Shown piece by piece: positions 13,766 through 59,339 of a stretch of DNA of 64,000 nucleotides. This DNA comes from Micromonospora coerulea (GTDB lineage: Bacteria; Actinomycetota; Actinomycetes; Mycobacteriales; Micromonosporaceae). How positions within the stretch are numbered: position 1 is the first letter of the stretch; every line of letters begins with the position of its first letter. The notes under the pieces are model-generated. The model saw only the letters and a program-made list of their open reading frames with translations. It made no database searches and was not told the origin of the DNA. The stretch spans positions 1-64,000 of the forward strand of contig NZ_JAEMUW010000007.1 of the NCBI RefSeq assembly GCF_016598485.1, given 5' to 3'. Both the position numbers and the translations under genes were made by a program.

Positions 13766-13789
13766 CACTTTCAGAGAAAGAGTGGCTAT
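13766..13789 (+). repeat. 24-base dispersed element, copy 1
   Basis: A 24-base sequence beginning CACTTTCAGAG and ending GTGGCTAT is identical to 22756-22779. It also has internal near-palindromy (CACTTTC, AGA, GAAAGaGTG). In this copy most of it is followed by its own reverse complement, making the long hairpin at 13772-13819. Likely a species-level repeat placed at gene ends. Confidence 0.8.
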
Positions 13790-13819
13790 CCGACGAGTCG
13801 GATAGCCACTCTTTCTCTG
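13772..13819 (+). terminator. 23-base perfect hairpin after the importer operon
   Basis: The arms 13772-13794 and 13797-13819 are exact reverse complements over 23 bases with a two-base centre. It starts about 40 bases after the binding-protein stop and ends before the iron box of desA, so it separates the two iron operons. There is no clear T-run after it. Confidence 0.8.
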
Positions 13820-13893
13820 CATTTGCGGCCGCCAGGGTGGGGCGGGGCTGAGTCACGACGCGCCGGGCGGGCGCAGCATCTATTTGAGTGAAG

Positions 13894-13912
13894 TTAGGTT
13901 AGGGTAACCTAA
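13894..13912. promoter_or_regulatory. Near-perfect IdeR/DmdR iron box of the des operon
   Basis: TTAGGTTAGGGTAACCTAA matches the IdeR/DmdR consensus at all but one position. The palindrome extends outwards to 13886-13920 with 16-base perfect arms around a GGG centre. It lies 88 bases before the desA ATG. Iron-dependent repression of desABCD is expected, as established for des genes in Streptomyces. Confidence 0.9.
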
Positions 13913-14000
13913 CTTCACTCGATCAACTCGGGACCGCTGGGGACGCCGTACGTCGCCCCGTCCGCCCCGCAGTGTCCACTCTCGACCACTGAGGACTGCC

Positions 14001-31572: not shown

Positions 31573-32985
31573 ATGCCCATCGCCACCACCAACCCCGCCA
31601 CCGGACAGGTGCTCAAGACGTACGAGCCGATGTCGGACGAGCAGGTCGGCGCCGCCATCGAGCGCGCCGACCTCGCCTTCCGGGACCTGCACCGCACCAC
31701 CGTCGCCCAGCGGGCGCAGTGGATGAACGCCGCCGCCGACCTGCTCGACGCCGAACGCGACGACACCGCCCGGCTGATGACCACCGAGATGGGCAAGACG
31801 TACGCCGCGGCGCAGGCGGAGGTGACCAAGTGCGCCACCGCCTGCCGGTTCTACGCCGCCAACGCCGAGCGGATGCTCGCCGACGAGCCCGCCGACGCGC
31901 AGGCGGTGAAGGCGAAGCGGGCCGTCGTCCGCCACCAGCCGATCGGCCCGGTGCTCGCCGTGATGCCCTGGAACTTCCCGCTGTGGCAGGTGATGCGGTT
32001 CGCCGCGCCGGCCCTCATGGCCGGCAACACCGGTCTGCTCAAGCACGCCTCCAACGTGCCGCAGACCGCGCTCTACCTGGAGGACGTGTTCCGCCGGGCC
32101 GGCTTCCCGGAGGGCGCCTTCACCACCCTGCTGGTCGGCTCGGAGGCCGTCGACCGGATCCTCAGCGACCCCCGGGTCCGCGCCGCCACGCTGACCGGCA
32201 GCGAGAGCGCCGGCCGCTCGATCGGGCAGATCGCCGGCCGGGAGCTGAAGAAGACGGTGCTGGAGCTCGGCGGCAGCGACCCGTTCGTGGTGATGCCCTC
32301 GGCCGACCTGGACCGGGCCGCCGAGGTGGCCACCACCGCCCGCTGCCAGAACAACGGCCAGTCCTGCATCGCGGCGAAGCGGTTCATCGTGCACACCGAC
32401 GTGTTCGACGCCTTCGCGGAGAAGTTCGCCGCCAACATGGCGGCCCTGAAGGTCGGCGACCCGATGGACGAGAGCACCGACGTCGGCCCACTCGCCAGCG
32501 AGCGTGGCCGCGACGAGATACACGCCCAGGTGCGGGACGCCGTGGACCACGGCGCCACCCTGCTCTGCGGCGGCGAGAAGCCCGCCGGTGACGGCTGGTA
32601 CTACCCGCCGACCGTGGTCACCGACCTGACCCCGCAGATGCGGATGTGGTCGGAGGAGGTCTTCGGCCCGGTCGCCGGGCTGTACCGGGTCTCGTCGTAC
32701 GAGGAGGCGATCGAGGTGGCCAACGGCACCACGTTCGGCCTGGGCTCCAACGCCTGGACGATGGACCCGGCCGAGCAGGAGCGCTTCGCCACCGACCTGG
32801 ACGCCGGCAACGTCTTCATCAACGGGATGACCACGTCCTTTCCGGAGCTGCCGTTCGGCGGCGTGAAGAACTCCGGCTACGGCCGGGAGCTGTCCGCCAT
32901 CGGCATGCGGGAGTTCTGCAACACCAAGACCGTCTGGGTGGGGGAGGGCGCCGCCTCGGCCGGGGCGGGCGCGCACGCCGAGTAG
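31573..32985 (+). CDS. gabD: NADP-dependent succinic semialdehyde dehydrogenase
   Basis: 470-residue aldehyde dehydrogenase superfamily enzyme, most like GabD (succinate-semialdehyde dehydrogenase), which oxidises succinic semialdehyde to succinate. Motifs: VMPWNFPLWQVMRFAAPALMAGN, the catalytic Glu in ELGGSDPF, catalytic Cys in NNGQSCIAAKRF and the C-terminal FGGVKNSGYGRELS. ATG at 31573 after CAGGAGTACGAG. No gabT or transporter is adjacent, so the in vivo aldehyde is inferred from family resemblance. Confidence 0.9.
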   Translation: MPIATTNPATGQVLKTYEPMSDEQVGAAIERADLAFRDLHRTTVAQRAQWMNAAADLLDAERDDTARLMTTEMGKTYAAAQAEVTKCATACRFYAANAERMLADEPADAQAVKAKRAVVRHQPIGPVLAVMPWNFPLWQVMRFAAPALMAGNTGLLKHASNVPQTALYLEDVFRRAGFPEGAFTTLLVGSEAVDRILSDPRVRAATLTGSESAGRSIGQIAGRELKKTVLELGGSDPFVVMPSADLDRAAEVATTARCQNNGQSCIAAKRFIVHTDVFDAFAEKFAANMAALKVGDPMDESTDVGPLASERGRDEIHAQVRDAVDHGATLLCGGEKPAGDGWYYPPTVVTDLTPQMRMWSEEVFGPVAGLYRVSSYEEAIEVANGTTFGLGSNAWTMDPAEQERFATDLDAGNVFINGMTTSFPELPFGGVKNSGYGRELSAIGMREFCNTKTVWVGEGAASAGAGAHAE

Positions 32986-32996
32986 TCGCGATTGGT

Positions 32997-33039
32997 CGGA
33001 CACCGTCATGGGTAGGAGGTGCGCCCATGACGGTGTTCG
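32997..33039 (+). promoter_or_regulatory. Hairpin enclosing the ribosome binding site and start codon of the luciferase-fold gene
   Basis: The arms 33001-33012 (CACCGTCATGGG) and 33024-33035 (CCCATGACGGTG) are perfect reverse complements. Pairing extends to 32997-33039 with one G-U. The 11-base loop is TAGGAGGTGCG, the ribosome binding site, and the ATG (33027-33029) is inside the right arm. In mRNA this should hide the start codon. As DNA it is equally a long palindromic operator. Confidence 0.75.
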
Positions 33040-33992
33040 GCTTCCACGCGTCCCACGAGCAGATCCATCCCGCCCGGCTGCTGGAGGCGGTGGTACACGC
33101 CGAACGGGCGGGCTTCGGCGCCGCCATGTCGTCGGACCACTTCTCCCCGTGGAGCGCCCGGCAGGGCCACTCCGGCTTCGCCTGGTCCTGGCTCGGGGCG
33201 GCGCTCCAGGCCACCAACCTGTCCTTCGGCGTGGTCAACGCGCCCGGGCAGCGCTACCACCCGGCGATCATCGCGCAGGCCATCGGCACCCTCGGCGCGA
33301 TGTACCCGGGCCGGTTCTGGGCGGCGCTGGGCACCGGCGAGGCGAGCAACGAGCACATCACCGGCGACGGCTGGCCCCGCAAGGAGCTGCGCAACGCCCG
33401 GCTGCGCGAGTGCGTCGACGTCATCCGGGCGCTGCTCGCCGGCGAGGAGGTCAGCCACGACGGCCTGGTCACCGTGGACCGGGCGAAGCTGTGGACCCGC
33501 CCCGAGCAGCCACCCGCCCTGATCGGCGCCGCGGTCAGCGTGGCCACCGCCCGCTGGTGCGCCGAGTGGGCCGACGGCCTGATCACCGTCAACGCGCCCG
33601 TCGACCACCTGCGCCAGCTGATCGACGCGTACCGGGAGGCCGGCGGGCGGGGGCCGCTGCACCTCCAGGCGCACGTCAGCTGGGCGCCCGACCAGGCGGA
33701 GGCGGAGGCGATCGCGTACGACCAGTGGCGCAGCAACGTCTTCGCCCCGCCGGTCTGCTGGGACCTGGAGATGACCGAGCACTTCGACACGGTCAGCGCG
33801 GACGTCCCGCTGGAGAAGGTCACCTCCACCGTCAACGTCTCCGCCGACCTGGGCCGGCACGTCGGCTGGCTGGAGGAGTACGTGGCGCTCGGCTTCGACC
33901 AGATCGCCCTGCACCACGTCGGGCAGGAGCAGCGGCCGTTCATCGACACCTTCGGCGCCGAGGTGCTGCCCAAGCTGCATACGCCCGCCTGA
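33027..33992 (+). CDS. Luciferase-like (LLM class) flavin oxidoreductase, TIGR03885 type
   Basis: 321-residue TIM-barrel flavoenzyme of the bacterial luciferase superfamily. Its start MTVFGFHASHEQIHPARLL, SSDHFSPWSARQGHSGFAWSWLGAALQAT, GALGTGEASNEHITGDGWP-like LGTGEASNEHITGDGWP and LGFDQIALHHVGQEQ correspond to the TIGR03885 subgroup, annotated as probable non-F420 flavinoid oxidoreductases. Substrate unknown. The ATG follows TAGGAGGT with ideal spacing, but both lie in a strong hairpin. It is 41 bases downstream of gabD. Confidence 0.88.
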   Translation: MTVFGFHASHEQIHPARLLEAVVHAERAGFGAAMSSDHFSPWSARQGHSGFAWSWLGAALQATNLSFGVVNAPGQRYHPAIIAQAIGTLGAMYPGRFWAALGTGEASNEHITGDGWPRKELRNARLRECVDVIRALLAGEEVSHDGLVTVDRAKLWTRPEQPPALIGAAVSVATARWCAEWADGLITVNAPVDHLRQLIDAYREAGGRGPLHLQAHVSWAPDQAEAEAIAYDQWRSNVFAPPVCWDLEMTEHFDTVSADVPLEKVTSTVNVSADLGRHVGWLEEYVALGFDQIALHHVGQEQRPFIDTFGAEVLPKLHTPA

Positions 33993-48484: not shown

Positions 48485-48518
48485 GACGTTGGCCGGGCCC
48501 GCCGACCCGGCCAACGTC
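48485..48518. terminator. Bidirectional terminator between methyltransferase and sigma factor genes
   Basis: GACGTTGGCCGGG (48485-48497) and CCCGGCCAACGTC (48506-48518) form a perfect 13-base stem with an 8-base loop, 11 bases from the stop of the convergent sigma factor gene. Works for either strand. Confidence 0.8.
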
Positions 48519-48529
48519 TCCCACCCCCC

Positions 48530-49354
48530 TTAGTACGTTCCGTCGAGCTGCCCGCGCAGCTTCGTCAGCGCCCGGGCCAGCAGCCGGGACACGTGCATCT
48601 GCGAGACGCCGATCTGCTCGGCGATCTGGGACTGGGTCAGGTTGCCGTAGAAGCGCAGCGTGAGGATCTTCTGCTCGCGCTCGTCGAGGGTGGCCAGCGC
48701 CGGGCCGAGGGCGACCCGGAGCTCGGCCAGCTCGAACTCGCCGTCCTCGCCGCCGAGCATGTCGCCCAGCTCGGTGGCCCGGTCGCCGTCGCCGGTCGGG
48801 GTGGACAGCGACACCGCGTTGTAGGCGCGGGCGCCCTCCAGGCCCTCCAGGACCTCTTCCTCGGTCAGCGTGAGGTGGGCGGCGATGTCCGCGACGGTCG
48901 GGGAGCGGCCGAGGGTCTGCAGCAGGGTGCTGTTGGCGTCGGAGATGGCCAGCCGCAGCTCCTGGAGGCGACGCGGCACCCGGATGTCCCAGGTGCGGTC
49001 GCGGAAGTGCCGCTTGAGCTCGCCGATGATGGTCGGGATGGCGTAACCGGCGAAGTCGACGCCCCGGGAGGGGTCGAACTTGTCGATCGCCTTGATCAGG
49101 CCGACGGCGGCGGTCTGCGCCAGGTCGTCGGTGGGCTCGCCGCGGCCGCTGTAGCGGTGGGCCAGGTGGTTGGCGAGCGGCAGCCAGGCCTCGATCGCCT
49201 TGTCGCGCATCGCGGCGCGGGACGGGTGATTCGCGGGCAGCGCGGCCATCGCGTTGAGCAGGTCCGCGGCGCTGTCGGTGAGTGCGCGCGGGTCCAGCTT
49301 CTCGGTGGTGGACGGCGGTGTGGTCGCCTGCTCGCTGATCGTTGGCGCGGTCAT
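48530..49354 (-). CDS. RNA polymerase sigma factor, SigB/SigF/SigG type
   Basis: 274-residue group 3 sigma-70 factor. Region 2 (DLAQTAAVGLIKAIDKFDPSRGVDFAGYAIPTIIGELKRHFRD), region 3 (TVADIAAHLTLTEEEVLEGLE) and region 4 (LDEREQKILTLRFYGNLTQSQIAEQIGVSQMHVSRLLARAL) match the stress and sporulation sigma factors of actinobacteria. No anti-sigma gene is adjacent, so control probably comes from elsewhere. ATG at 49354 preceded by GGGAGG; an upstream in-frame start lies before this and is not favoured. May read the SigB-like promoters found elsewhere in the window. Confidence 0.9.
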   Translation of the reverse strand: MTAPTISEQATTPPSTTEKLDPRALTDSAADLLNAMAALPANHPSRAAMRDKAIEAWLPLANHLAHRYSGRGEPTDDLAQTAAVGLIKAIDKFDPSRGVDFAGYAIPTIIGELKRHFRDRTWDIRVPRRLQELRLAISDANSTLLQTLGRSPTVADIAAHLTLTEEEVLEGLEGARAYNAVSLSTPTGDGDRATELGDMLGGEDGEFELAELRVALGPALATLDEREQKILTLRFYGNLTQSQIAEQIGVSQMHVSRLLARALTKLRGQLDGTY

Positions 49355-59298: not shown

Positions 59299-59339
59299 GG
59301 CTTCCCTTCTACCCGCCCCGGCGCGCGCCGACGCGCGAC

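Follow-up and report, generated by a model that had tools for sequence, protein, structure and literature searches.

Results

An inverted repeat overlaps the start of an oxidoreductase gene

The window, by which we mean the whole 64,000-nucleotide stretch of DNA analyzed here, comes from a Micromonospora genome of 6.8 Mb in 136 contigs, and its nearest named loci, among the best 80 of 403, are those of Micromonospora species. On the forward strand, a gabD-like gene for an NADP-dependent succinic semialdehyde dehydrogenase (31573 to 32985, with its TAG stop codon at 32983 to 32985; NF006915, 854.7 bits against a cut-off of 730) is followed by a gene for a luciferase-like, FMN-dependent LLM class oxidoreductase of 321 amino acids (33027 to 33992; TIGR03885, 479.2 bits against a cut-off of 398.7). 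The ATG of the oxidoreductase gene lies 41 nt past the end of gabD on the same strand, and a Na+/H+ antiporter gene lies downstream. Elsewhere in the window, the reverse strand encodes a sigma factor of the SigB/SigF/SigG family (48533 to 49354; TIGR02980, 283.9 bits against a cut-off of 234.35). A perfect 13-bp inverted repeat at 48485 to 48518, directly past the stop codon of this sigma gene, is perhaps its terminator.

An inverted-repeat search finds, around the start of the oxidoreductase gene, two 16-nt arms that are 94% complementary and 11 nt apart. The left arm occupies positions 32997 to 33012, and the right arm, 33024 to 33039, contains the start codon (33027 to 33029), as the initial annotation had placed it. 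That annotation described a perfect repeat of 12 bases extendable to 16 pairs. RNA versions of the arms would form 16 pairs, including one G-U pair that corresponds to the single DNA mismatch, and the perfect core proves to be 13 bp (33000 to 33012 with 33024 to 33036) rather than 12. Between the arms is the loop TAGGAGGTGCG (33013 to 33023), which carries a Shine-Dalgarno-like AGGAGG at 33014 to 33019.

The 75 nt from 32986 to 33060 are predicted to fold as RNA with an energy of -43.0 kcal/mol, compared with -27.0 +/- 3.4 for dinucleotide shuffles (z = -4.7), and none of 200 shuffles matches this value. For a wider segment (32960 to 33080) the z score is -3.2, and one of 200 shuffles folds equally well. 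The window as a whole contains eight perfect inverted repeats with arms of at least 12 nt and loops of 3 to 30 nt, against 0, 0, 2, 1, and 1 in five Markov controls. Thus, the repeat at the start codon exceeds chance expectation, yet it is not the sole such repeat in the window. The longest two of the eight lie near each other at 13772 to 13819 (22 bp, 4-nt loop) and 13886 to 13920 (16 bp, 3-nt loop).

A probable stress promoter lies within the repeat

To compare the start region among orthologues, we drew on the 134 of 151 genus genomes that matched the oxidoreductase, 30 of which supplied loci and 100 of the remaining 104 sequence stretches, and on the best 80 of 403 loci in a collection of named genomes, some of which lie outside the genus and many of which duplicate genus genomes. 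The 211 loci yielded 143 distinct upstream sequences, a count from which genomes G001, G040, G059, and G089 and, for a few genomes, an additional copy of lower similarity are absent. In a survey in which G040 and G089 do appear, a fixed-spacing pattern with TTC as codon 4 already matches 111 of the 160 genomes of the genus, and the sample is therefore nearly exhausted. Two orthologues show possible decay or sequencing error, one (G040, C323:30488-31440) being represented by two overlapping matches and the other (G016, C76:4051-5007) carrying an in-frame TGA.

In all 143 sequences, the motif GGGTA lies no more than 25 nt from the start codon, whereas a 25-nt control window located 76 to 100 nt upstream includes it in only 1 of 141. 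The first base of the motif is at -17 in 133 sequences, which places 12 nt between GGGTA and ATG, at -16 in eight, and at -15 in two; the ten with other GGGTA-ATG distances were omitted from the fixed-spacing table. The motif GNNT precedes GGGTA by 14 to 17 nt in 142 of the 143 sequences, and by exactly 16 nt in 122. At the locus studied here, these elements correspond to GATT at 32990 to 32993, a 16-nt spacer at 32994 to 33009 that holds most of the left arm, and GGGTA at 33010 to 33014, whose GGG closes the stem and whose TA opens the loop.

This arrangement matches promoters described for SigB/SigF-type sigma factors. The consensus in B. subtilis is GTTTAA-N12-14-GGG(A/T)A(A/T), SigB-type promoters of S. 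coelicolor combine GNNT or GTTT with GGG..A, and the GGG and A of the -10 element are nearly invariant (PMC8346170). The SigF motif of M. smegmatis is GTTT-N14-19-GGGTA (PMC4694148; PMC6448022), and in several SigF genes of that species it lies 8 to 11 nt from the start codon (PMC4694148). The -35 element, the -10 element, and their spacing at the oxidoreductase start all agree with this promoter type, and five genes in the genome score above the curated cut-off as SigBFG-family sigma factors. The sigma gene in the window is one candidate among these five for the reader of the promoter. The site thus resembles the general stress promoters of other actinobacteria, with GNNT or GTTT followed after about 14 to 19 nt by GGGTA, and differs from them in that its spacer doubles as a hairpin arm and in that its sigma factor and start are predicted ones.

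A regulon, in the sense of motif enrichment or of copies at the sigma operons, was treated as supportive rather than defining for this promoter type. In a crude genome-wide test, the strict motif GNTT-N15..17-TGGGTA was not enriched, with 17 matches (this site counted) against 17 in a reversed control. A similarly crude search for GTTN-N14..17-GGG(T/C)A at the five sigma loci yielded no GGGTA-type match; its three matches, two of them overlapping, are all GGGCA and all at one locus (L275), with none at the other four. The promoter is therefore identified by how well its motif is conserved and what the motif is, and not through a regulon; on these grounds we regard the conserved motif over the oxidoreductase start, with high confidence, as a SigB/SigF-type stress promoter. 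A second GNNT-N16-GGGTA is present in the window at 59334 to 59310 on the reverse strand, 11 nt before the ATG of a HAD-family hydrolase gene (59298 to 58624, reverse strand).

Beyond the genus, a search of the phylum recovered a TIGR03885 member above the cut-off in 19 of 246 genomes, two of which are Micromonospora. GGGTA stands 15 to 18 nt before the start in five (L305, L307, L308, L315, and L318) of the 17 upstream regions from outside the genus, whose start codons were extrapolated from the alignment, and the promoter is therefore not universal in the family.

These findings change how the loop should be viewed. The initial annotation had taken it as the holder of a ribosome binding site, but the border of stem and loop is primarily a -10 element. 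GGAGG occurs upstream of 20 of the 143 orthologues, and any of AGGA, GGAG, or GAGG in 94.

The hairpin is retained in one large lineage of Micromonospora

A tree was computed with FastTree from the gabD and oxidoreductase genes for 146 distinct rows representing 157 loci, with the first eight codons excluded and gabD present in 135 rows. Group A comprises the 96 ingroup tips that remain when tips with ATC as codon 4, tips whose spacer starts with AC, and five basal tips are removed; group B comprises the other 41 ingroup tips, and nine outgroup tips belong to neither. This rule is independent of pairing, yet it was devised after the sequences had been inspected. An initial hairpin set of 97 of the 146 tips had been picked by pairing, which biases counts of conservation and wobble pairs, and these counts were therefore redone with the A/B rule, on which we rely.

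At least eight of ten pairs (columns 5 to 14, G-U counted) are kept in 85 of the 96 group A tips, compared with one of the 41 in group B. Thus, the loss of left-arm complementarity among orthologues, which the initial annotation would have read as evidence against the structure, is the rule in group B, whereas pairing persists through most of group A. A hairpin over the start codon thus characterizes much of the genus. Micromonospora lupini (L070) and a further locus (L150) carry a perfect 16-pair version that differs in sequence, AACGACGTCAT against ATGACGTCGTT. Parsimony places 18 changes in hairpin presence on the 137 ingroup tips, with a tree that is weak at deep nodes.

Other arrangements were seen at some loci. 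In some that are without the start-codon hairpin (L101, L253, L245, and L031), GGGTA is flanked by different short arms, which reach to just before the ATG, as in L101 with GCCGGCCT GGGTAGGG AGGCCGGC. A small clade (L231, L234, and L236) has the left arm GGGTGGTGTTGTGGG. G-U pairs account for about half of its pairing with the right arm, with which it also directly shares GGTGTT.

In several Micromonospora lineages, gabD is separated from the promoter by an intergenic palindrome (about GGCGTTAACAGGGGGCCCCTGCTTACA); its carriers include L021, L027, L031, L046, L048, L050, L212, L231, and others. The GCTTAC end of this repeat occupies the -35 position in many of them, and its pattern, allowing up to two mismatches, has no match in the genome from which the window derives. 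Among 115 ingroup tips whose codon 4 is not ATC, the hairpin is missing in 12 of the 15 with the inserted repeat versus 17 of the 100 without it, a comparison that ignores kinship. This loss fits relief from read-through of gabD, and it also fits the plain overwriting of the -35 element and spacer by the insertion.

The same association bears on the idea that the hairpin is a terminator, or a stabilizer of the 3′ end of the gabD mRNA, that overlaps the start of the next gene by chance. The repeat is by far the strongest in the stretch directly past gabD, and its disappearance where other DNA has been inserted would be in keeping with such a role, although the contrast takes no account of phylogeny and the arm may simply have been overwritten. 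The right arm is followed by no run of T residues and the loop is 11 nt long, and we consider this explanation highly unlikely.

The start codon is predicted to be hidden only in RNA that enters from gabD

We next consider where transcripts from the promoter would begin. Table 2 of PMC8346170 mostly prints 8 to 11 nt after the -10 element, and we took the printed sequence to end at the mapped start. By this measure the oxidoreductase transcript would start at about 33023 to 33026, and we allow 33021 to 33027, which corresponds to a leader of 0 to 6 nt. An mRNA from the gene's own promoter would thus be near-leaderless. Leaders of at most 5 nt are found on 24% of transcripts in M. smegmatis, a related actinobacterium (PMC6448022). 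A message that starts in this zone would be without the left arm, so that the hairpin could form only in RNA entering from gabD. In 147 of the 157 loci gabD is the same-strand neighbor, making it a possible source of such read-through RNA; the distance from its last sense codon to the ATG, stop codon included, is 34 to 238 nt, and 44 nt in the window. The gene was not found at that place in ten loci, two of which (L056 and L092) are explained by contig ends.

Start-codon accessibility was computed for read-through RNA, for read-through RNA with a shuffled spacer, and for the gene's own mRNA, modelled with its first nucleotide 12 nt past the first G of GGGTA. For the window sequence, the predicted probability that the AUG is unpaired is 0.0005 in read-through RNA, 0.76 when the spacer is shuffled, and 0.83 in the own mRNA. 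Group A gives mean values of 0.144, 0.645, and 0.564, respectively, and group B gives 0.668, 0.710, and 0.472. In group A, the probability falls below 0.1 for 69 read-through and 8 own-mRNA folds, out of 96 each; in group B, it does so for 4 and 2, out of 41 each. For group A, the folding model hence predicts that the start codon is sequestered, as the initial annotation envisaged, in RNA that carries both arms, such as RNA reading through from gabD.

The accompanying proposal, that translation stays off until heat, a helicase, or a ligand unfolds the structure, fares less well. The AUG is indeed covered by the stem, as it would be in an RNA thermometer, a riboswitch, or a helicase-opened leader on the gene's own mRNA. 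However, that mRNA would be without the left arm, and a switch of this kind would have nothing to act on. In addition, a fold of -43 kcal/mol in 75 nt would be too stable for sensing temperature in the growth range. A search of positions 32800 to 33300 against Rfam gave RF02342 as its sole match, at 27.8 bits versus a gathering score of 60 and on the opposite strand. A temperature sensor or riboswitch was rejected on the grounds that a conserved promoter motif lies inside the structure and that no Rfam match exceeds the gathering score, and we regard this class of explanation as scarcely credible and the least likely of the rivals. Unfolding by coupling with gabD translation, also suggested in the initial annotation, is unlikely as well because the 11 nt between the gabD stop codon and the left arm would be about the reach of the ribosome.

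Conservation and covariation of the left arm

Pairwise identity was compared in five bins of tree distance, the last spanning distances of 0.20 to 0.26. Group A spacers (columns 5 to 16) are identical at fractions of 0.92, 0.85, 0.70, 0.72, and 0.76 of positions, close to the fourfold sites of the same group (0.90, 0.85, 0.78, 0.75, and 0.72). The 20 nt upstream give 0.80, 0.59, 0.48, 0.46, and 0.40 in group A, and the spacers of group B give 0.56, 0.63, 0.57, 0.53, and 0.51, with each bin holding 3 to 116 pairs.

We also simulated neutral decay from the hairpin of the window. At rates of 1, 1.5, and 2, the observed retention of 85 of 96 was reached in 44, 3, and 0 of 300 runs, and the mean pair number of group A in 1, 0, and 0. 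Rates estimated by hand are about 1.5 from the fourfold sites of group A and about 3.7 from the spacers of group B; at about 3.7, none of 300 runs reached the retention of group A. Adding 14 in-clade tips with AC spacers changes the observed count to 86 of 110, which 119, 43, and 15 of 300 runs reach at the three lower rates; the observed mean pair number is then reached in 86, 18, and 2. Neutral retention of the hairpin is therefore excluded under some settings only.

The kind of change is also informative. Among left-arm changes from a paired state in group A, transitions and transversions number 56 and 44 where a wobble pair is possible, and 5 and 14 where it is not (Fisher one-sided p = 0.016). 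Group B leans the same way, with 16 and 31 against 3 and 13 (p = 0.20). Direct tests of covariation, which the initial annotation had put forward as the proof of RNA pairing, were not significant. With G-U counted as a pair, own partners exceeded swapped partners by 6 to 3 with four ties among the 97 tips chosen by pairing, and by 10 to 9 with nine ties among all 146. At codon 3, an A in the left arm stands opposite T in the right arm in 24 of 51 cases and opposite C in 0 of 40 (91 of the 96 tips being usable), and independent pairs give a median sign-test p of 0.25. The covariation signal is weak. On the evidence of spacer conservation and wobble-type bias, the left arm is likely to be under constraint in group A, and the constraint may act through RNA pairing.

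These data bear most directly on the possibility that the promoter is real but the left arm is a relic, namely, an inverted copy of the gene start that was made in the ancestor of some Micromonospora lineages, perhaps through template switching within a hairpin, and that has since been decaying without function. The confinement of the hairpin to part of the genus, its 18 parsimony changes on a tree with poorly supported deep nodes, the lack of a significant result in any covariation test, and the neutral runs that reach the observed count once in-clade losers are included (119 and 43 of 300 at rates 1 and 1.5) are in keeping with such a history. It is harder to reconcile with spacers that, in all five bins, are more alike in group A than the 20 nt upstream or the spacers of group B and that lie near the fourfold sites, with retention in group A alone, a level attained by 3 of 300 neutral runs at rate 1.5 and by none at rate 2, and with the wobble-type bias. 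We judge a functionless relic to be unlikely, if by no means negligible.

Conservation of the left arm in group A, together with the near-perfect dyad inside the promoter, would also be expected of a DNA operator at which a dimeric regulator, bound to both arms across the spacer and the start codon, would repress or activate the promoter. An operator lying across the start codon had likewise been raised in the initial annotation. The core dyad CCGTCAT-N14..19-ATGACGG occurs only once in the 6.8 Mb genome, however, and a regulon-wide operator was rejected for its single copy. The centers of the arms are 27 bp apart, which would be a wide spacing for such a site, and at column 14, 81 of the 97 tips picked by pairing have a left-arm G facing a T, which breaks the symmetry of the DNA but makes a pair in RNA. 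An operator is retained here as a decidedly unlikely rival.

Discussion

A proposed read-through filter built into a promoter

The function that we infer for the hairpin is that of a filter against read-through. A stress promoter would fire within the hairpin itself, with its -35 element just past the gabD stop codon, its spacer serving as the left arm, and its -10 GGGTA closing the stem and opening the loop. The message that begins at about 33021 to 33027 would be near-leaderless and without the left arm, leaving the AUG free. RNA derived from gabD, by comparison, would carry both arms and would fold into the 16-pair hairpin over the AUG, so that no oxidoreductase would be made from it. In this way the hairpin would filter out read-through, and protein output would be tied to the stress sigma factor as the switch.

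The closest parallels known to us from the literature are phage genes. Gene e (lysozyme), soc, gene 49, and I-TevI of T4, as well as mobE of Aeh1, have hairpins that inhibit the translation of read-through RNA and that contain a late promoter; late-promoter transcripts of gene e and I-TevI start within the helix, are without its 5′ arm, and are translated, and these promoters need another sigma factor, gp55 (PMC3014915; PMC2988022). In Micromonospora, likewise, folding predictions have the start region hidden in the long transcript, and RNA made from the inner promoter would be without the 5′ arm, judging from the conserved position of the -35 and -10 elements. Unlike the T4 examples, the gene is a chromosomal one in a free-living actinobacterium, the promoter is of the SigB/SigF type, the product mRNA would be near-leaderless, the left arm is built into the promoter spacer, and the system is known from its sequence alone. 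Of the explanations considered, the likeliest is that the Micromonospora layout works like the device of T4 gene e, a likeness that falls short of membership. Transposase genes of IS10 and IS50 offer a related case, in which transcripts entering the element form a hairpin from an inverted repeat that covers the ribosome binding site, and transcripts of the inner promoter do not. Those hairpins sit at the ends of mobile elements, whereas the Micromonospora hairpin precedes a host metabolic gene.

Among the matches listed in our literature search for a chromosomal precedent, which covered parts of the sources, were the phage cases; we recognized no gene on a bacterial chromosome with such an arrangement, which is no proof of absence, and the matches listed include no study of SigB promoters in Micromonospora.

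Taken as a whole, the model of a SigB/SigF-type promoter combined with a hairpin that silences read-through, in the manner of the T4 lysozyme gene, seems to us about evenly poised between right and wrong. A broader proposal is possible but more tentative: that such a filter operates on the chromosome in much of Micromonospora, where a promoter spacer evolved into the complement of the start region, where the choice of promoter sets whether the RNA is translatable or silent, and where the arm is lost once an insertion has moved the two genes apart and the filter is no longer needed.

Implications

Even if the hairpin had no function, the conserved motif suggests that, across Micromonospora, this TIGR03885 oxidoreductase is part of a SigB/SigF-type regulon. 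If the model is correct, an ordinary bacterial chromosome would use a phage-style means of insulating a gene from its neighbor's transcription, and about 50 bases would pack together an overlapping promoter spacer, -10 box, loop, and start codon. Compact actinobacterial genomes that are rich in leaderless genes would thereby gain a cheap, terminator-free way of separating stress genes from upstream operons, and similar overlaps are predicted to be findable by scanning leaderless stress genes.
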